A DNA stretch of 64,000 nucleotides, taken from assembly GCF_003244315.1 (NCBI RefSeq), contig NZ_QKWH01000002.1, forward strand, positions 1 to 64,000, written 5' to 3'. The position numbers and the translations under genes are program-made. Shown here piece after piece: positions 22,378-32,061 of the stretch; position 1 is the stretch's first letter; every line of letters starts with the position of its first letter. The notes beneath the pieces were generated by a model, which saw only the letters and a program-made list of their open reading frames with translations, was not told where the DNA came from and did no database searches. Source of the DNA: Xylanimonas oleitrophica (GTDB taxonomy: Bacteria > Actinomycetota > Actinomycetes > Actinomycetales > Cellulomonadaceae).

Positions 22378-22761
22378 GTGCCCACCGGCAAGGTCAAGTG
22401 GTTCGACGCCGAGCGCGGCTTCGGCTTCATCGCCGCCGACGACGGCGGCGAGGTCTTCCTGCACGCCTCCGCGCTGCCCGACGGTGTCGCCAACCCCAAG
22501 CCCGGGGCCCGCGTGGACTTCGGCGTGGCGGACGGCCGTCGCGGTCCGTCGGCCCTCGCCGTCAAGCTCCTGGACCCGGCGCCGTCGGTCGTCAAGGCCA
22601 AGCGCAAGCCGCCGTCGGAGATGGCCACGATCGTCGAGGACCTGATCAAGGTGCTCGACCGCGTGGGGGACGGGCTCAAGCGGGGCAAGTACCCCGAGGG
22701 GCCTGCCGCCGAGCGCGTCGCCAAGCTCCTGCGTGCCGTGGCGGACGACCTCGAGGTCTGA
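22378..22761 (+). CDS. Cold-shock domain protein with C-terminal extension
   Basis: A 127-residue protein. Residues 1-65 are a cold-shock domain (GKVKWFDAERGFGFI with RNP1, and EVFLHASAL as RNP2). The C-terminal 60 residues are a helical extension (MATIVEDLIKVLDRVGDGLKRGKY) absent from classical CspA. It probably binds RNA or single-stranded DNA; the extension may mediate oligomerisation or partner binding. Long forms like this occur widely in actinobacteria. GTG 22378 is preceded by GAGGT and the leader hairpin. It is followed 14 nt later by the DUF3027 gene, suggesting one operon. Confidence 0.9.
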   Translation: MPTGKVKWFDAERGFGFIAADDGGEVFLHASALPDGVANPKPGARVDFGVADGRRGPSALAVKLLDPAPSVVKAKRKPPSEMATIVEDLIKVLDRVGDGLKRGKYPEGPAAERVAKLLRAVADDLEV

Positions 22762-22775
22762 GGGACAATCAGAAC

Positions 22776-23696
22776 GTGACTGCTGCCGCCGAGGCTCCTG
22801 CCCGCAACCGCCGCACGGGTGCGTCTGCCCGTACCGCCAAGGAGGCCGTGCTGGTCGGCGCGGTCGATCTGGCGCGCGAGGCCGCGGTCGAGGTCGCGGA
22901 GTCGGCGTCCGACGTCGGCGAGCACCTCGGTGCCGTGGTCGAGGGCGAGCGCCTGGTCTCCCACCGGTTCGCCGCGGGGATGGCGGGGTACCGCGGCTGG
23001 TACTGGGTGGTCACGGTGGCCCGCGTGCCGCGCGGCCGTACCGCCACGGTGTGCGAGGTGGAGCTGCTGCCGGGCGAGGACGCCCTGCTGGCTCCCGAGT
23101 GGCTGCCGTGGTCCGAGCGGCTGCGTCCGGGGGACATCGGCCCGGGGGACGTGCTGCCCTTCAAGCCGGACGACCCGCGCCTGGAGCCGGGCTGGGAGCC
23201 CACGGGCGACGAGGAGCTCGACTCGGTCGCGATCGAGGAGCTCGCCCTGGCGCGGCAGCGCGTGCTGTCGCCGCGGGGGCGCGACGAGGCCGCCCAGCGC
23301 TGGTACCGCGGCTCCCGCGGGCCCACCGCCGCGGTGGCGGTCGCCTCGCCCGCCGAGTGCCTCTCGTGCGGGTTCCTGATCCCGCTCTCCGGGCCGCTGG
23401 GCCAGCTCTTCGGGGTGTGCGCCAACGAGTGGTCGCCCGACGACGGCAAGGTGGTGTCCCTCGACCACGGGTGCGGCGCGCACTCCGAGACGGACGTGGA
23501 GCAGCCGCCGTCCGACTGGCCGGACGCCGACCCGCTGATCGACGAGAACACCGTCGAGGTGGTCGAGCTGGCGCCGGTGAAGATGGCCGACCCGGTGGAC
23601 ACCGCGGCCGGGCCGCTGCCCGTGGTGGAGGCGGACGCCGAGGCTGAGCCGGCCGCGGACGCCACCGAGGCCGAGGCCGAGCCCGAGGCGGAGTGA
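22776..23696 (+). CDS. DUF3027 family protein
   Basis: A 306-residue actinobacterial DUF3027 protein. The conserved part spans about residues 20-265. It includes RFAAGMAGYRGWYWVVTVAR and a cysteine-containing C-terminal segment ECLSCGFLIPL ... FGVCANEW ... DHGCGAHSE. The four cysteines in CxxC-x(n)-C-x(n)-C spacing could bind zinc. The last 45 residues are a disordered Glu/Ala tail. Function is unknown. Start GTG 22776. It overlaps the following ATPase gene by 4 nt (GTGA), so the two are translationally coupled. Confidence 0.9.
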   Translation: MTAAAEAPARNRRTGASARTAKEAVLVGAVDLAREAAVEVAESASDVGEHLGAVVEGERLVSHRFAAGMAGYRGWYWVVTVARVPRGRTATVCEVELLPGEDALLAPEWLPWSERLRPGDIGPGDVLPFKPDDPRLEPGWEPTGDEELDSVAIEELALARQRVLSPRGRDEAAQRWYRGSRGPTAAVAVASPAECLSCGFLIPLSGPLGQLFGVCANEWSPDDGKVVSLDHGCGAHSETDVEQPPSDWPDADPLIDENTVEVVELAPVKMADPVDTAAGPLPVVEADAEAEPAADATEAEAEPEAE

Positions 23697-26600
23697 CCGC
23701 CGACCCGTTCGGGACGTCGGCGCTGCGAGGCGCCGTCCTGGACGCGTGGCGTGGCTCGGGCACCCGGCTGAGGGAGGACGCGAACCTCGAGGAGGACCAC
23801 GCCCGCGGGTACTACCGCGACCGGGTGCTGGTCGAGCTCGCTCAGAACGCCGCCGACGCCGCCGCTCGCGCGGGCGTGCCCGGGCGGGTCACGGTTCGTC
23901 TGGAAGGGCACCGCTCACCTGCGGTGTTGGTGGTCTCCAACGACGGTGCGCCGCTCGATGCCGCGGGCGTCGCCTCGCTGGCGTCCTTGCGTGCGTCGGC
24001 CAAGGGCGCCGGTGCGGTGGGCCGGTTCGGCGTCGGGTTCGCAGCCGTGCGCGGGGTGGCCGACGACGTGACGGTGCGTTCGCGGGCGGGCGGGGTGCGG
24101 TTCTCGCTGACCGCCACGCTCGAGGCCCTGGGCCTGCGCGAGGGGCACGTGCCGGTGCTGCGGCTGCCGTTCCCCGCGCCGGCCACGACGCCCGCCGAGC
24201 CCGACACCGTGGTGGAGCTCGTGCTGCGCGACGCCGAGGCTCTGGAGGCCGTGCGCACGCAGCTCGACGCCGTCGACGACGCCCTCCTGCTGGCGCTGCC
24301 GAGCCTGGACGAGGTGACCCTCGAGCATGTCGACGCGCGCGGTGAACGGCACCGCCGCGTGCTGCGCGACGTCGAGGAACGGTGGACGGTGCACCGCGAG
24401 GCGGGCGAGCTCGACCCCGCAGACGTGGCCGACCTGCCGGCCGAGCACCGCCGTACCGACTGGTCGGTGGTGTGGGCGCTGCCGCGCGGGGGCGAGCCGG
24501 CTCGCGGGCCCGTGCCGGGGCTCGCGGCGGCGACCTTGCACGCCCCCACGCCCACGGACGTCCCCCTCTCCTTCCCTGCCCTGCTCGTCGCGTCGTTCCC
24601 CGTGGACCCGGGACGGCGCCGGGTGCTGCCGGGCCCGGCCACCGAGCGCCTGGCCGTCGCGGCCGGCCGGGCCTACGCGGCCCTGCTGGCCCGGCTCGCT
24701 CCCGAGCGAGGCGGTGACGTGCTGGAGCTCGTGCCGGCGGGGATGCCCGCCGGGGACCTCGACGCCGTCGTGCGCGACGCGGCGGTCGACGCCTTGCGCA
24801 CCGCCCCGCTGCTCCCGGCGGCCGACGCCGGGGGCGCCGGTCTCGTCGCGCCCGCCGACGCGGTGCTGCTCGCCGGCCCGGTGGGAGAGGACCGGGAGGT
24901 CGCGCGCGTGCTGGGCGCCGTGGCCCTGACGACCCGGCTCCACGCGCTGGCGCGGATGCTGGGCGCCCGGGTGGTGCCGCTGGCCGACGCCCTCGACGAG
25001 CTGCCCGGCGGCATGGCACCGGCGCGGTGGCGCGAGGTGTACGCGGCGCTGGCCGCGCACGTCGTGGACCCCGCCGTCCGCGAGGCGCTCGCCGGGGTGC
25101 GGGTGCCGCTCGCGGACGGGCGGCTGGTGCTCGGGCCGCGGGGGACGGTGCTGCCGGACGGGCCGCACGGCGCGGGCCGGCCGGAGGAGGACGACGAGCC
25201 CTCGACGGCGGGCGAGAGGCCGGGAGCGCACGACCCCCTGGCGGACGCGGCCGCGGCCCTCGGGGTGCGGCTGGTGCACCCGGACGCCGCGCACCCCGTG
25301 CTCGAGCGGGCGGGCGCCGTGGAGCTCGACCCCCGCGCCCTGCTGGGCGACCCGTCGGTCCGGGCCGCTGCGCTCGCCGCGGCGGCCCAGGTGATCGACG
25401 ACGACGGGGACGACGACGGGGGCGACGACGAGCAGGTCGGCGCCGGCCCGCAGGACGTGGTGGACGCGGTGCTCCTCCTGGCCCGCCTGGCCGTGGACGG
25501 CTCGGACGCCCCGCTGCCGTTCTGGCTCGGCGAGCTGCCGGTCGCGACCGCCGACAGGGACGTCGCGCCCCTGCGGGAGTGCGCCCTGCCCGGCTCGTGG
25601 GCGGCCGAGCACCTGGACGCCCTCGCCCTCCTGGACGTCGACGAGGTGGTTCGCCACGGGGCGCACGTGCTGCGGGCTGCCGGGGCACACGCGGACCTGG
25701 ACCTGTACGTCGTGCGCGACGTCGACACGGGCGGGGGAGACGACCCGGGTCCGGACGACCCGGCGGGCTGGCTGGCCGGGTGGGACGACTACCTCGATGC
25801 GCTCGCGGAGCGGTGGGGTGAGGACGTGCTGGTCGGGGACCTGGAAGCGGTCGCCGACCTGGACGCGGTGGCCGAGGGGTCGTGGTCGCAGGCGCTGACC
25901 CGGGTGGCGGGCGACCCGCTGCTGCGCCGGGCGCTGCTGGCACCGGCCCGCCCGGGTGCGGGGGCCCGGCCCGGCGCGGAGGCAGCGCCGTCGTACACCG
26001 CCTGGTGGCTGCGCCGGCACCTGGGCGCGCCGTTCGCCCTGGACGGCGACGTGCCGCTGCTCCCGGCTCCGCCCGCACCGGTGAGGGGGCTGGACCCGGA
26101 GGTGCTGCGCGCGCTCGGCGGGGTCGGGTCGCTCGCGGGGCTCACGTCGGAGGACTGGCCCGTGGTGCTGGAGGGGCTGCCCCCGGTGGGCGCTCCGGTC
26201 GCGCTCACGGACGCGCTCGCCCTGTGGGAGGGCCTGGTGGCCCTGGCCGTGCGTCTCGGCCCGCACACCGAGGCGCTCGACCCGCTGCCCGGGCGGCTCC
26301 CCGCGCTGCGCACCCGCCCTGCTGAGGTCACGCCCGACGTCACGGTGCAGGTCACGGTGGCCGACGCGTCGGACCTCGTCGTCGCCGGTGCGCCGCGGTG
26401 GTCGCAGACCGGCCCTGTGGTCCCTGCCCCGCCCGGTGCGGCCGCGGCGCTCGCCGACCTGCTGGACCTGCCGCTGGCCGGTGGTGACGGTGGTGACGAC
26501 GAGAGCGACATCGAGGGCGATCTCGTCCCCGACGCCCCCGGTGCCCTGCGGGACGTCGACGAGCGGGTGCGGGCCCTCGACCCGCGCCTGCCCCACCGCT

Positions 26601-26806
26601 GGCGCCACCACGAGCGGCTCACGGTGGGCGGCCGGCGCGTGACCTGGTGGGTGCACGACGGGCAGGCCCACGCCGAGGGCACGGCCGGTCTGGCGCGTGC
26701 GCTGGCCGAGGTGCTGGGGGCGCCGTCGCTGGGTCCGGTGCTCGAGCGGGCGCTCGCCGAGCCCGCGCGGGCGCAGGAGGTGTGGGCGGTCAGGGCCTGG
26801 GGCTGA
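23693..26806 (+). CDS. Large sacsin/Hsp90-like (GHKL ATPase) protein
   Basis: A 1037-residue protein with an N-terminal Bergerat-fold ATPase domain like those of sacsin and Hsp90. The N-box is VLVELAQNAADAA (about residues 45-57). The nucleotide-lid region includes VVSNDGAPLDAAG and the glycine motif GAVGRFGVGFAAVRG (about 105-120). The remaining 850 residues are acidic, Ala/Leu/Val-rich and not recognisable to me, with short repeats of DDDGDDDGGDDE near 565-577. It lacks an HD or MutL-like nuclease motif that I can see. GTG 23693 overlaps the DUF3027 stop. A chaperone-like or DNA-defence role is possible but unproven. Confidence 0.85.
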   Translation: MTADPFGTSALRGAVLDAWRGSGTRLREDANLEEDHARGYYRDRVLVELAQNAADAAARAGVPGRVTVRLEGHRSPAVLVVSNDGAPLDAAGVASLASLRASAKGAGAVGRFGVGFAAVRGVADDVTVRSRAGGVRFSLTATLEALGLREGHVPVLRLPFPAPATTPAEPDTVVELVLRDAEALEAVRTQLDAVDDALLLALPSLDEVTLEHVDARGERHRRVLRDVEERWTVHREAGELDPADVADLPAEHRRTDWSVVWALPRGGEPARGPVPGLAAATLHAPTPTDVPLSFPALLVASFPVDPGRRRVLPGPATERLAVAAGRAYAALLARLAPERGGDVLELVPAGMPAGDLDAVVRDAAVDALRTAPLLPAADAGGAGLVAPADAVLLAGPVGEDREVARVLGAVALTTRLHALARMLGARVVPLADALDELPGGMAPARWREVYAALAAHVVDPAVREALAGVRVPLADGRLVLGPRGTVLPDGPHGAGRPEEDDEPSTAGERPGAHDPLADAAAALGVRLVHPDAAHPVLERAGAVELDPRALLGDPSVRAAALAAAAQVIDDDGDDDGGDDEQVGAGPQDVVDAVLLLARLAVDGSDAPLPFWLGELPVATADRDVAPLRECALPGSWAAEHLDALALLDVDEVVRHGAHVLRAAGAHADLDLYVVRDVDTGGGDDPGPDDPAGWLAGWDDYLDALAERWGEDVLVGDLEAVADLDAVAEGSWSQALTRVAGDPLLRRALLAPARPGAGARPGAEAAPSYTAWWLRRHLGAPFALDGDVPLLPAPPAPVRGLDPEVLRALGGVGSLAGLTSEDWPVVLEGLPPVGAPVALTDALALWEGLVALAVRLGPHTEALDPLPGRLPALRTRPAEVTPDVTVQVTVADASDLVVAGAPRWSQTGPVVPAPPGAAAALADLLDLPLAGGDGGDDESDIEGDLVPDAPGALRDVDERVRALDPRLPHRWRHHERLTVGGRRVTWWVHDGQAHAEGTAGLARALAEVLGAPSLGPVLERALAEPARAQEVWAVRAWG

Positions 26807-26821
26807 GCCCCGGGGGCATGG

Positions 26822-27058
26822 TCAGCGGTGCCTGCGCGCCCACAGGAGCCCGAGGCCGCCGAGCGCGATGCCGGCCGCGCAGACGGCCACCCCGTCCCAG
26901 GGGCGGTTCCCGACGACGGCGAGCAGGAGCGCCACCACGAGCGCGACGGCCCACAGGGCGATGCCGGCCAGGACGACGCGGCGAAGGTTCACCTCGTACG
27001 GCGGAGGGCTGGGGCGTCGCCGGTCGGGGTGGGCCAGGAGGCTGGCGATCGACGGCAC
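26822..27058 (-). CDS. DUF2530 family membrane protein
   Basis: A 78-residue protein with two transmembrane helices, about residues 28-50 (VVLAGIALWAVALVVALLLAV) and 56-73 (GVAVCAAGIALGGLGLLW). The motif PPPYEVNLRRVVLAG before the first helix is typical of DUF2530. It ends RRHR, so both termini are likely cytoplasmic. It converges on the sacsin-like gene with only 15 nt between stops. In mycobacteria a DUF2530 gene sits next to the DUF3027 gene, so the large ATPase may be an addition between them here. Confidence 0.8.
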   Translation of the reverse strand: MPSIASLLAHPDRRRPSPPPYEVNLRRVVLAGIALWAVALVVALLLAVVGNRPWDGVAVCAAGIALGGLGLLWARRHR

Positions 27059-27122: not shown

Positions 27123-27395
27123 TCAGAACAGGTAGCGCGCGAGCTCGCGCGGCACCACGCGGCCCATCAGGTCGAGCGCGACGGTGCGGGTGAGCTCGTG
27201 CATGTCGGGGTCGTCGAGCAGGTCACCCAGGTCACCCAGGTCACCCAGGTCGTCGAGGCCACCGCTGGGCGAGGCCGGCGTGCTTCCGGCGGCCGACGTC
27301 ATCGGGGCGAGTCGCTGCTCGATCTCGCGGACCGTCTCTTCCACGCGGAGCAGCAGGTCCGCGGCGGCGTCCAGGGCCGGTCTGCCGCTCGTCAT
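27123..27395 (-). CDS. Hypothetical protein coupled to the second FlgN-like gene
   Basis: A 90-residue, mostly helical acidic protein (LLLRVEETVREIEQRLAP near the N-terminus). Residues about 48-60 are a short repeat, GDLGDLGDL, encoded by three and a half copies of a 9-nt unit. ATG 27395 overlaps the stop of the FlgN-like gene (ATGA), so it is translationally coupled to it. It may be a flagellar export substrate, partner or chaperone by association only. No family is recognised. Confidence 0.65.
   Translation of the reverse strand: MTSGRPALDAAADLLLRVEETVREIEQRLAPMTSAAGSTPASPSGGLDDLGDLGDLGDLLDDPDMHELTRTVALDLMGRVVPRELARYLF
27219..27251 (-). repeat. 9-nt tandem repeat within a coding region
   Basis: Three perfect units of CAGGTCACC (27219-27245) plus CAGGTC (27246-27251). 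The repeat keeps the reading frame and encodes Leu-Gly-Asp units on the minus strand. It is a likely site of copy-number slippage. Confidence 0.9.
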
Positions 27396-27805
27396 CGGGC
27401 GTCGTCCCGCTCGGCGCCGGCGGCCGGGGCGGAGTCCTGGAGGAGCTGCTGGTTGCGGTCGGCCAGGCGGCGGATGTCGGTCACGAGCTCGGTGAGCGCG
27501 TGGTGGTGGGCCTGGAGCATGTCCGACCAGGGCGGGGGAGCGGCAGCGGTGATCTCGCCGAGGCTCGCGCCGGGGGCCAGGCCCAGCTCGGTGGCGGCGC
27601 CGTCGGAGTCGACGGCCCGGCCCAGGTCGGCGGTGTGCACGGCGTCGAGGGTGCGAGACAGCTCGCGCCCGGCCTGGGCGAGGGCGTGCAGGCGTCCGGA
27701 CGCGAGGACCAGCTCGTGGACCTCGAGACGGAAGCGCAGCATCTCGAGCAGGCGGCGTTCAGCCCAGAGCGTCTCCGAGAGCGTGCTCAGCGTCACTTCA
27801 CGCAC
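27392..27805 (-). CDS. Second FlgN-like flagellar chaperone
   Basis: A 137-residue helical protein clearly paralogous to the FlgN encoded at 38067-38561. Both share LWAERRLLE(L/M)L, then F(K/R)LE, L-SGR, LGL(E/A)PG-(T/S)LGE and AAP(A/P)PW, across almost the whole length. FlgN binds the hook-junction proteins FlgK and FlgL and delivers them to the flagellar exporter. A second copy away from flgK/flgL may serve another substrate, perhaps the small protein encoded downstream. GTG 27805 is preceded by AAAGG; an in-frame GTG at 27796 is also possible. No FliA-type promoter was found upstream. Confidence 0.8.
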   Translation of the reverse strand: MREVTLSTLSETLWAERRLLEMLRFRLEVHELVLASGRLHALAQAGRELSRTLDAVHTADLGRAVDSDGAATELGLAPGASLGEITAAAPPPWSDMLQAHHHALTELVTDIRRLADRNQQLLQDSAPAAGAERDDAR

Positions 27806-28654: not shown

Positions 28655-28719
28655 GAGACCACCCGCGCGCCTGAATGGCGGCGTCCGGCAGGTCGGGGAG
28701 ACTGGCCGTGGAGGTACCC

Positions 28720-31700
28720 ATGCCCAGAACGATCCTCGTGCTCACGCCGGTGGCCGGCGGAGGCACCGCCGGGGAGATCCTCGACGGCGTCCACCGGACC
28801 GCGGCCGCCCTCGGGTGGCACCTCGTCGTCGTCCAGACGAGCGTGCCGTCCCGCGGCGGTGCCACCAGCGCCGCCGACGTGCGCCTGGCCGTCGACCGCG
28901 CCGACGGGGTCGTCGTGGTCGGCGACACCGTGGCGCGCACGTACGCCGAGGTCCTCGCCGAGGGTGAGGTGCCCGTGGTGGTGGCCGCCGAGCGGCACGA
29001 CGACGCCCTGCCCACCGTGGCGCCGGACAACGTGGGCACCGCCAGGGTGCTGGTGGAGCACCTGGCCGAGCACGGGTACGGCCGGGTGGTGTTCGTGGGA
29101 GACCTGGCCGACGGTGCGGTGGCCGAGCGGCTCGAGGGCTACCGGGACGCCGTCGCGCGGTCCGGGCTCCAGACCGGCGAGCAGGACGTCGTCGACGCCC
29201 CGCCCGGGGAGAGCGGCGGACGAGTCGCCGCGTTCTTCGTCCTGGCGCAGGAGGACCGGCCGAGGGCCGTGCTGTGCGCGACGTCGGCCACCGCGGTCGG
29301 CCTGACCCGGGCCCTACGCGCCGCCGACGTCTGCGTCCCCGAGGACATCGCCGTCGTCGGGTTCGACGACGTCTGGGCCGCCGAGTCGCACGACCCCTCC
29401 ATCACCACCGGCAACCACCGCTGGGACGTGCTGGGCTCCCGCGCCGTGGAGCTGCTCGCGGCCCGGCTCCGCGACGGGGCGGCGGACCCCGGCGCCGGCG
29501 CGGCAGCCCCGCCCGCCCCCGCCGTCGTCGGCCGCGCCTCCTGCGGCCCCTCTGCCGCCGTGCCCGACGAGCCCGCCCTCGACGACCCCGCGGCGGACGA
29601 CCTCGAGACCACCATCCTGACGACCCTGGGGGTCGAGGGGCGCTCCCGCGCCGCGCGAGAGGCGGCGCACGACCTCGCCCAGGAGGTCCGTGCCATCGTC
29701 GACGAGGTCGAGCGCACGGGCGCCGAGCCGCAGACCCACGCCTTCGCCACCGCCATGACCCCCCTCGCCGAGGTCCTCGTGCGCCCCGGGATCATGTACG
29801 GCGTCGGGCTCGCCGTCGGCGCCTACCTCACGCGGCGAGGGCAGCGTGCCTCGACCGAGATCGAGCCCATGCTGCGCATGATGCGCCACCGAGCCCTCGG
29901 CGCCGCGTGGCACCTGCAGGCACGTCGTGGCGCGCAGCGTGTCAACGCGCTGCGCGACGCGCTCCACCAGCAGTACGAGGTCGGTGCGGCGCTCATGGCC
30001 GACCAGGAGCAGGCGGCCGAGCTCGGCTGGCTCGCCAGCACCGGCGTGCCCGCCGGCGTCCTGGCCGTGCGCGAGCGCGACACCTACGTGGTGCGCGGCG
30101 TCTGGGACCCGCGGGGGAGGGTCGGAGCCGCACGGGGCGACGCCGTCGCCCCCAGCGCCTTCCCGCCTCCCGGCATGCTGGCCGTCGCGGACCCCGCCCA
30201 CGACATCGTCCTCGTGCTGCCGGTGGGCTCCGCCGAGGGCGAGCGCGGCGTCCTGGCGCTCGTCGTGCCGGGCGCGCAGGGAGCCGTCGGCACCACCTAC
30301 TCGTACTGGGCGGCCATGCTGGCCTCCACGCTGGAGCACGCCGAGCTCGTCGACGCCGTCGGCGACGAGCGCGAGCGCCTCGGCCTGCTCGCCCTGGCGA
30401 TGCGCGACGGCCAGTGGGAGTGGGACATCGAGACCGGCCGCATCGCGCTGTCCGCGCGCGCGGAAGAGCTGCTGCAGCTGCGCGCCGACGAGGTCTCCGA
30501 CTGGTTCGACCGGGTCCACCCGCGCGACGCGCGCAAGCTTCGCGGCCACCTCGCCGCCGTGCTCGCCGCCGACGGCCCCGCCTCGTTCGAGCAGGAGCTG
30601 CGGTTCCGCAGCGGAGGCACCTACCGCTGGCTCCTCATGCGCGCCATGACCCGCGGCCGGCGCCCCGGCGGCCGCGACCCGTTGCTCATGGGATCCCTCG
30701 CGGACATCCAGGAGCGCAAGGAGCTCGAGGAGAAGCTCGAGGTGGCGGCCATGTACGACCCCGTCACCGGGCTCGCCAACCGCCGCCTGTTCCTCGAGCG
30801 GCTCGGCGACGCGATGGAGCGGCACCGCTCCCGGGGCACCGAGTACGCCGTCATGTTCCTCGACCTCGACCGCTTCAAGCTGGTCAACGACTCCCTGGGC
30901 CACCGAGCGGGCGACGAGCTGCTGCGGGCGGTGGGCGAACGCCTCGGAGAGACGCTGCGGCCCCACGACATCGCAGCCCGGTTCGGTGGCGACGAGTTCG
31001 CGGTGCTGTGCGACAGGATCGTGCCCGACACCGCCGAGAGCGTGGCCCGGCGTCTCCAGGAAGCCCTGACCCGCCCGTTCGAGGTCGAGGGCCGCCACCT
31101 GTGGGTCACCGCGAGCATCGGCATCGTCACCTCGCCCAACCGCCACGAGCAGCCTGAGGACGTGCTCCGCGACGCCGACACCGCCATGTACCAGGCGAAG
31201 TCGGGCGAGGCAGGCAGCGTGGTGCACTTCGACGAGTCGATGCACGAGCAGGCGCTGGCCGACCTCGCGCTCTACGAGGCGCTGCGCCGCGCCCTCGACG
31301 CCCGGCAGTTCTCCGTGCACTACCAGCCGATCGTCACCGTGCGGGACAACCACGTCCAGCCGGTGCGGCGCTTCGAGGCCCTGGTGCGCTGGGAGCACCC
31401 TGAGAAGGGCACCGTGGGACCGCACGTGTTCCTGCCGCTCATGACGGAGACCGGTCTGGTGGTGCCGCTGGGCCGGTGGCTCATCGACGAGGTGTGCCGG
31501 CAGCTCGCCGCGTGGCAGCACACGGTCTCCGACGAGGTGCAGGTGAGCGTCAACCTGTCGGACCCGGAGTTCTGGTCGGAGGGCCTGCTCGGGTACATCC
31601 AGCAGTCGCTGGCCCGCCACGGGGTCCCTGCGTCGGCCCTGACGGTGGAGATCACCGAGGGCGTGATCGTGCGCCGTCCCCGCCAGACGCTCGAGCTCAT

Positions 31701-32061
31701 CACGTCGCTCCAGGACGCCGGGCTGGAGGTCCACGTCGACGACTTCGGCACCGGCTACTCGTCGCTGCACATGCTGCACCGGTTCCCGGTGGACGCCCTG
31801 AAGATCGACAGGTCGTTCGTGCAGGAGATGAGCCAGGGGGAGCGCACGGTCGCGCTCGTGCAGGCCATCATCGCGATGTCCGACGCCCTCGGGATCGAGG
31901 TGATCGCCGAGGGCGTCGAGGACACCGAGCAGATGGAGCGGCTGGAGGCGATGGGCTGCACCAGCATGCAGGGCTACCTGTTCGGCCGGGCCACCGGTCC
32001 CGACGGCGCCACGGCCGCCCTGCAGCGCGAGCCGGTGGGGTCAGGCCTGCTCGATGCGTAG
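28720..32061 (+). CDS. LacI-type sensor-PAS-GGDEF-EAL c-di-GMP enzyme
   Basis: A 1113-residue cytoplasmic fusion. Residues about 5-265 form a LacI-type periplasmic-binding-protein fold (VLEHLAEHGYGRVVFVG-like region, VPEDIAVVGFDDV), without a DNA-binding head. A linker and helical region precede a PAS domain (about 560-665). The GGDEF domain (near 755) keeps RFGGDEFAVL and an inhibitory RxxD site, RPHD. The EAL domain (from about 885) keeps FEALVRW, VNLS, VEITEG, DDFGTGYSSL, LKIDRSF, AEGVE and GYLFG. It can therefore be predicted to make and degrade c-di-GMP under a small-molecule signal. GAGGTACCC precedes ATG 28720. It overlaps the convergent PilZ gene by 21 nt. Confidence 0.9.
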   Translation: MPRTILVLTPVAGGGTAGEILDGVHRTAAALGWHLVVVQTSVPSRGGATSAADVRLAVDRADGVVVVGDTVARTYAEVLAEGEVPVVVAAERHDDALPTVAPDNVGTARVLVEHLAEHGYGRVVFVGDLADGAVAERLEGYRDAVARSGLQTGEQDVVDAPPGESGGRVAAFFVLAQEDRPRAVLCATSATAVGLTRALRAADVCVPEDIAVVGFDDVWAAESHDPSITTGNHRWDVLGSRAVELLAARLRDGAADPGAGAAAPPAPAVVGRASCGPSAAVPDEPALDDPAADDLETTILTTLGVEGRSRAAREAAHDLAQEVRAIVDEVERTGAEPQTHAFATAMTPLAEVLVRPGIMYGVGLAVGAYLTRRGQRASTEIEPMLRMMRHRALGAAWHLQARRGAQRVNALRDALHQQYEVGAALMADQEQAAELGWLASTGVPAGVLAVRERDTYVVRGVWDPRGRVGAARGDAVAPSAFPPPGMLAVADPAHDIVLVLPVGSAEGERGVLALVVPGAQGAVGTTYSYWAAMLASTLEHAELVDAVGDERERLGLLALAMRDGQWEWDIETGRIALSARAEELLQLRADEVSDWFDRVHPRDARKLRGHLAAVLAADGPASFEQELRFRSGGTYRWLLMRAMTRGRRPGGRDPLLMGSLADIQERKELEEKLEVAAMYDPVTGLANRRLFLERLGDAMERHRSRGTEYAVMFLDLDRFKLVNDSLGHRAGDELLRAVGERLGETLRPHDIAARFGGDEFAVLCDRIVPDTAESVARRLQEALTRPFEVEGRHLWVTASIGIVTSPNRHEQPEDVLRDADTAMYQAKSGEAGSVVHFDESMHEQALADLALYEALRRALDARQFSVHYQPIVTVRDNHVQPVRRFEALVRWEHPEKGTVGPHVFLPLMTETGLVVPLGRWLIDEVCRQLAAWQHTVSDEVQVSVNLSDPEFWSEGLLGYIQQSLARHGVPASALTVEITEGVIVRRPRQTLELITSLQDAGLEVHVDDFGTGYSSLHMLHRFPVDALKIDRSFVQEMSQGERTVALVQAIIAMSDALGIEVIAEGVEDTEQMERLEAMGCTSMQGYLFGRATGPDGATAALQREPVGSGLLDA

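Follow-up and report, generated by a model that had tools for sequence, protein, structure and literature searches.

Which protein is encoded by the long reading frame that begins inside the end of the DUF3027 gene of Xylanimonas oleitrophica, and why do the two genes stand together? The question was raised by a stretch of 64,000 nucleotides (contig NZ_QKWH01000002.1, positions 1 to 64,000; called the window here), for which a first-pass annotation made from the letters alone had described a DUF3027 protein overlapping by four nucleotides with a 1037-residue sacsin/Hsp90-like GHKL ATPase. Both observations hold. The letters GTGA are read directly at 23693–23696, the GTG start codon of the ATPase lying at 23693 within GAGTGACC, and GTGA is common to this start and to the TGA stop of the DUF3027 gene; the ATPase scores above the cut-off of the family model NF047352, and its fold and its ATP-site residues agree with the assignment. 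We regard the protein as an ancestral-core GHKL ATPase of the sacsin type, of the size of one sacsin repeat, which most likely, if far from certainly, acts as a chaperone or clamp driven by ATP. Its identity, its conserved catalytic residues, its domain layout, the gene order and the inheritance of the gene were established from sequences or structural models.

Sacsin-like proteins are already known from prokaryotes, and the N-terminal domain has already been named by NCBI. With the respective NCBIfam model, the sacsin N-terminal ATP-binding-like domain (NF047352), the window ATPase yields 71.6 bits at a cut-off of 50. Two Pfam models, SACS (PF25794, 17.3 versus 32.8) and HATPase_c, do not reach their gathering scores in the window ATPase alone, but 32 of 38 orthologues match PF25794 with E ≤ 0.01. 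No match of PF00183, the Hsp90 middle and C-terminal model, was found in the ATPase. A profile of the 38 orthologues compared to the PDB reached HtpG (E 1.3e-6), TRAP1, and sacsin SR1. An AlphaFold2 model of the whole ATPase was built from the alignment of the same orthologues, with a mean predicted local distance difference test score (pLDDT) of 88.7. Residues 20–430 of this model matched TRAP1 with a Z score of 14.8 (351 aligned, residues 21–438) and HtpG with a Z score of 14.7, and sacsin SR1 was matched with a Z score of 14.5 (181 aligned, root-mean-square deviation 3.7). Other GHKL proteins were also matched, topoisomerase VI and gyrase scoring as high as Hsp90. In the predicted structure residues 20–430 are folded like the N-terminal and middle domains of Hsp90.

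The residues of the ATP site were mapped from Table 1 of PMC9880540, which covers yeast Hsp90 and human sacsin, onto the 38 orthologues, which are diverse. Twelve positions proved to be invariant in all of them: E48, L49, N52, D55, A56, N83, S102, G110, G113, G115, F116, and R308. T172 is found in 37 and K104 in 36. E48 corresponds to E33 of Hsp90 and E116 of sacsin (PMC9880540, Table 1). Two positions show the sacsin state: N83, equivalent to Asp79 of Hsp90 and Asn160 of sacsin, is in the sacsin and not in the Hsp90 state throughout, and K104 stands where Hsp90 has Gly100 and sacsin Lys180. S102 and K104 form an S-x-K lid of the sacsin type, and about two thirds of the 38 orthologues have a spacing of 22–28 residues between L88 and G110, the others a longer one. 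Larger sacsin-like relatives, described below, have the same ATP-site residues. As R308, and not the neighbouring R309, is kept in all 11 of the larger relatives aligned, it is a candidate equivalent of sacsin R474 and Hsp90 R380, judged from shared motif and position. R474C is among the severe sacsin patient mutations (PMC3629688).

The C-terminal module, residues 436–1037, was modelled alone with AlphaFold2 and gave a pLDDT of 90.7 and a predicted template modelling score (pTM) of 0.86. Foldseek found no match of the whole module in the PDB (best E 5.7), a search in which a query of 600 residues can hide single-domain matches, and none among viral predictions (best E 3.3). A second fold comparison gave a Z score of 3.1 at most, with no Hsp90 among the matches listed, and a profile of the C-terminal part compared with the PDB yielded nothing. 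The fold is thus predicted with confidence and has no detected relative among solved structures. Relatives were found by sequence profiles. A family of sacsin-like proteins of 1565–1859 residues aligns with residues 10–903 of the ATPase (835 columns, E 3.9e-42), and the C-terminal part alone still aligns with it over 395 columns (P 1.7e-6, probability 90%), where a reversed control gives nothing. These larger proteins (L166–L178) are sporadically distributed in Actinomycetota, and the three which were scanned all end in an SF2 helicase (ResIII/Helicase_C) closest to RadD. By its sequence the window ATPase is a shorter, helicase-less relative. The N-terminal part of the larger proteins also matches TmtA, and they are possibly defence or repair proteins. 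Within the module a weak internal repeat relates residues 442–560 (25016–25372) to residues 585–675 (25445–25717; hhalign probability 58%). The earlier statement that the 850 C-terminal residues resemble nothing known therefore has to be narrowed: residues 200–430 are like the Hsp90 middle domain and residues from about 460 to 903 align with the sacsin-like family, but the last 130 residues are indeed matched by nothing. The structure prediction and remote-homology search which had been proposed for this part gave a confident fold with no detected PDB match but with kin in a helicase-fused family.

Gene order and inheritance were examined in an even sample of 197 Actinomycetia genomes. DUF3027 is present in 196 of these, and orthologues of the ATPase that go beyond N-terminal-only matches are present in 104 (109 with any match). 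In a sample of the phylum outside the class no DUF3027 was found, and only short N-terminal matches of the ATPase were. The neighbour survey showed a conserved linkage: 72 of the 104 ATPases, from many families, follow DUF3027 directly and in the same orientation, where directly means within 1.6 kb of the DUF3027 domain and small genes between may occur. A further three share the strand of DUF3027 at a distance of 1.6–10 kb, and four within 10 kb run the opposite way; 19 are more distant or lie on a different contig, and for six no place of DUF3027 is listed. The same order recurs in Cellulomonas, Isoptericola, Promicromonospora, Oerskovia, Streptosporangiaceae, Thermomonosporaceae, Nocardiopsis, and Streptomyces. 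Of 22 loci of the Cellulomonadaceae/Promicromonosporaceae type, 20 have the four-nucleotide overlap; in Streptomyces the gap between DUF3027 and ATPase is mostly 150–450 nucleotides and DUF2530 is often several kb away. Eighteen of the 19 distant ATPases belong to one family (f98), in which DUF2530 adjoins the ATPase in three of the four loci read (L161–L164), and the fourth has a weaker DUF2530 match there; this points to a joint move of the two genes. In Kribbella and Actinopolymorpha the ATPase is located elsewhere and DUF3027 is not nearby. The ATPase gene tree follows the families, with 12 changes where 10 are the least possible and 37 are obtained after shuffling. Because the order recurs in distant families and the tree follows taxonomy, the ATPase is an ancestral core gene of Actinomycetia, vertically inherited and lost in several lineages. 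It had been thought to be inserted between DUF3027 and DUF2530, neighbours in mycobacteria; with all three genes in this order in Streptosporangiaceae and Thermomonosporaceae and with a tree of this shape, DUF3027-ATPase-DUF2530 is the older arrangement and loss is the simpler explanation. Genomes of the window's own family from which the ATPase is missing can have DUF3027 immediately facing DUF2530 (L143, L144). One record, labelled Sphaerisporangium cinnabarinum ATCC 31213 (L069), has a gene which groups inside the Promicromonosporaceae/Oerskovia clade; it may be mislabelled or contaminated.

The partner gene is well defined. PF11228 matches residues 48–239 of the 306 residues of the DUF3027 protein with 291 bits at a cut-off of 25 (E 6e-87). 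All 28 of the DUF3027 proteins aligned have C195, C198, C215, C233, and H236, a set compatible with a zinc site, which makes the suggested zinc binding plausible. In a PDB profile search of the protein only cysteine-rich scavenger-type proteins were obtained (best E 8.5e-6), no stretch passing alone, and these were set aside as chance cysteine matches. In the genomes of one family (f19) and in one further genome (G041) DUF3027 matches only the first 70–103 profile positions, and the part with the putative zinc site seems to have been lost or to have diverged. DUF3027 is an actinobacterial signature protein, represented by SCO4330 (PMC4255298), and transposon insertions in SCO4330 lowered actinorhodin (PMC6585502). 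In Streptomyces the ATPase gene usually comes next in the same orientation, so these insertions may have had polar effects on it. The mycobacterial DUF3027 protein is Rv0877, which carries a frameshift in one BCG isolate (PMC7781554) and is therefore not strictly essential there. Rv0883c, considered at one point as the mycobacterial DUF3027, was dropped because PMC7781554 assigns Rv0877, so that what PMC7775120 notes on the essentiality of Rv0883c has no bearing on DUF3027.

The earlier interpretation was borne out in part, for the sacsin/Hsp90-type ATPase and for the linkage with DUF3027; a joint role of the two proteins is possible but would be optional. The linkage is conserved, and in the lineage of the window the two genes are probably co-transcribed; it is also optional and one-sided, since DUF3027 is near-universal and exists without the ATPase, and the ATPase stands apart from DUF3027 in f98 and in Kribbella. 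DUF3027 is possibly an adaptor which contacts the ATPase.

The best supported mechanism, by analogy to Hsp90 and sacsin, is an ATP-gated closure of the N-terminal and middle domains. ATP would bind in the Bergerat pocket of the N-terminal domain, covered by an S-x-K lid that is mostly short, and R308 of the Hsp90-like middle domain would then reach the gamma-phosphate and lock the two domains together. Hydrolysis, presumably with E48 as the base, would reopen them and thereby move the 600-residue C-terminal module, which may hold a client. DUF3027 would be a separate zinc protein not dependent on the ATPase. HtpG (PF00183) has no match anywhere in the genome from which the window is taken, which leaves the ATPase as the only recognised protein with Hsp90-type N-terminal plus middle domains there, and of the 197 Actinomycetia genomes only 38 have a true HtpG (E < 1e-100). 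A replacement of HtpG by the ATPase was considered and discarded, as the two are not mutually exclusive: 28 of the 38 genomes with HtpG have both (odds ratio 3.1 without phylogenetic correction). In its fullest form the proposal would combine a core chaperone made of one sacsin-type unit, a novel fold of the C-terminal module, a DUF3027 protein acting as zinc adaptor, and the role of an Hsp90-type machine in the many actinobacteria without HtpG; as a whole we consider this rather unlikely.

Several observations weigh against a chaperone. About half of the class does without the ATPase, which is therefore not essential in general, and its co-occurrence with HtpG means that it is not a simple substitute for it. 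The Hsp90 C-terminal dimerisation domain was not recognised in the fold search of residues 436–1037, and in the literature no biochemical or genetic data on the ATPase family were found. The pair of GHKL and middle domains was also found by the fold search in gyrase, topoisomerase VI, and SMCHD1, so that a chaperone is not the sole role which fits the fold, and relatives of almost the whole ATPase region are fused to helicases. In one alternative, which is unlikely, the protein is a nucleic-acid-linked GHKL clamp working with helicases or repair factors, the nearby XPB or its associates being partners in trans. Larger relatives of 1565–1625 residues are alignable over residues 10–903 and carry the RadD-like helicase where scanned, topoisomerase VI and gyrase folds score as high as that of Hsp90, and an XPB helicase (866.8 bits) and a Helicase_C_3 protein are encoded upstream of the window ATPase, both divergently. 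However, the window ATPase contains no helicase or recognisable nucleic-acid domain, XPB was not found in Streptomyces within the flanks searched, and none of these neighbours accompanies the Kribbella ATPase. A dedicated complex, in which the zinc protein recruits or regulates an ATPase acting only as its partner, would account for the 72 genes directly behind DUF3027 in many families and for the overlap in 20 of the 22 loci of the window's group; it is distinctly unlikely in view of a DUF3027 present in 196 of 197 genomes where the ATPase is present in about half, an f98 ATPase away from DUF3027 yet near DUF2530 in the loci examined, and a DUF3027 not nearby in Kribbella and Actinopolymorpha.

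Whether the protein hydrolyses ATP at all may be asked because of the asparagine in place of Asp79 of Hsp90, and low ATPase activity was reported for the SR1 domain of sacsin in isolation (PMC9880540). A structural scaffold with weak or no nucleotide binding is nevertheless very unlikely, as the catalytic glutamate, the Mg-binding asparagine, the glycine box, the S-x-K lid, and the middle-domain arginine are strictly conserved, and a longer sacsin fragment was reported to be active (PMC9880540). Phage defence, named as a possibility in the first-pass annotation, was rejected as the first choice and is most improbable. GHKL ATPases do occur in defence systems and PADLOC models of TmtA (Tiamat) match the ATPase (E 3.5e-34), but the match is limited to the generic GHKL and middle part, residues 20–335 against profile positions 25–354 of 1538, and the C-terminal module matches none of the PADLOC families. 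The fixed core synteny argues against such a role, as do the vertical tree and losses without islands, unlike what is seen for mobile defence genes; the ATPase looks more like a housekeeping chaperone than a phage-defence gene.

Among the closest known systems is the sacsin internal repeat (SIRPT; sr1-sr2 = SRR; vertebrate SACS), with which the ATPase shares the Bergerat domain, the asparagine for Asp79, the S-x-K lid, the R474-type arginine, and a unit length of about 1000–1400 residues; it differs in being a single unit in which ubiquitin-like, J, and HEPN domains were not recognised. Hsp90, HtpG, and TRAP1 have the fold of the N-terminal ATPase and middle domains and the catalytic residues in common with it, whereas the asparagine for Asp79, the missing PF00183 match, and a different, larger C-terminal part set it apart. 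The larger L166–L178 proteins share the profile alignment over residues 10–903 and the ATP-site residues; they are 600 residues longer, have the SF2 helicase where examined, occur sporadically, and are not the DUF3027-linked orthologue.

Table 1: Features of the locus in the window, with positions counted from the first nucleotide of the window.
Feature	Position	Strand	Basis
Cold-shock-domain protein, upstream of DUF3027	22378..22761	+	PF00313 60 bits
DUF3027 protein, 306 residues, acidic C-terminal tail	22776..23696	+	PF11228 E 6e-87, translation
Putative zinc site of DUF3027 (C195, C198, C215, C233, H236)	23358..23483	+	Invariance in 28/28 DUF3027 proteins
Four-nucleotide overlap GTGA, DUF3027 stop/ATPase start	23693..23696	+	Direct reading
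Sacsin-type GHKL ATPase, 1037 residues	23693..26806	+	NF047352 71.6 bits; AlphaFold2 pLDDT 88.7
Predicted Bergerat-fold ATP-binding domain, residues 20–226	23750..24370	+	Sacsin SR1 Z 14.5, HtpG Z 14.7, conserved residues
Predicted Hsp90 middle-like domain and helices after it, residues 200–430, with R308	24290..24982	+	TRAP1 Z 14.8, residues 21–438
C-terminal module, residues 436–1037	24998..26803	+	AlphaFold2 pLDDT 90.7, pTM 0.86
DUF2530 membrane protein, 78 residues, convergent	26822..27058	-	PF10745 31.8 bits, cut-off 25.5

The ATPase gene stops at 26806 and is followed by DUF2530 on the opposite strand (Table 1). The cold-shock-domain gene upstream of DUF3027 is seen again in related loci and belongs to the conserved order. 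Beyond DUF2530 a gene for a FlgN-like flagellar chaperone is located at 27392–27805, and positions 28675–32061 encode a 1128-residue signalling protein which, judged by eye from its domains, is of the GGDEF/EAL type and resembles LacI at its N-terminus; the cluster adjoins a flagellar region.

New is a helicase-less subfamily of the sacsin type that belongs to the core genome, keeps a fixed ancestral synteny and has a C-terminal fold without a match found in the PDB; in the literature searched no paper on this DUF3027-linked ATPase family was found. Human sacsin has 4,579 residues, and it is debated whether its repeats are true ATP-driven chaperones (PMC9880540, PMC3629688). While human sacsin is too large for easy biochemistry, the window ATPase is small enough to serve as a model of the sacsin unit, and a bacterial protein of 1037 residues with the sacsin ATP site, a structure predicted with high confidence and orthologues in Streptomyces, for which good laboratory strains exist, could make the question of the sacsin chaperone testable. 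For the actinobacteria themselves the ATPase is a so far unstudied core gene of the ancestral chromosome, beside DUF3027, a signature protein to which no function has been assigned.

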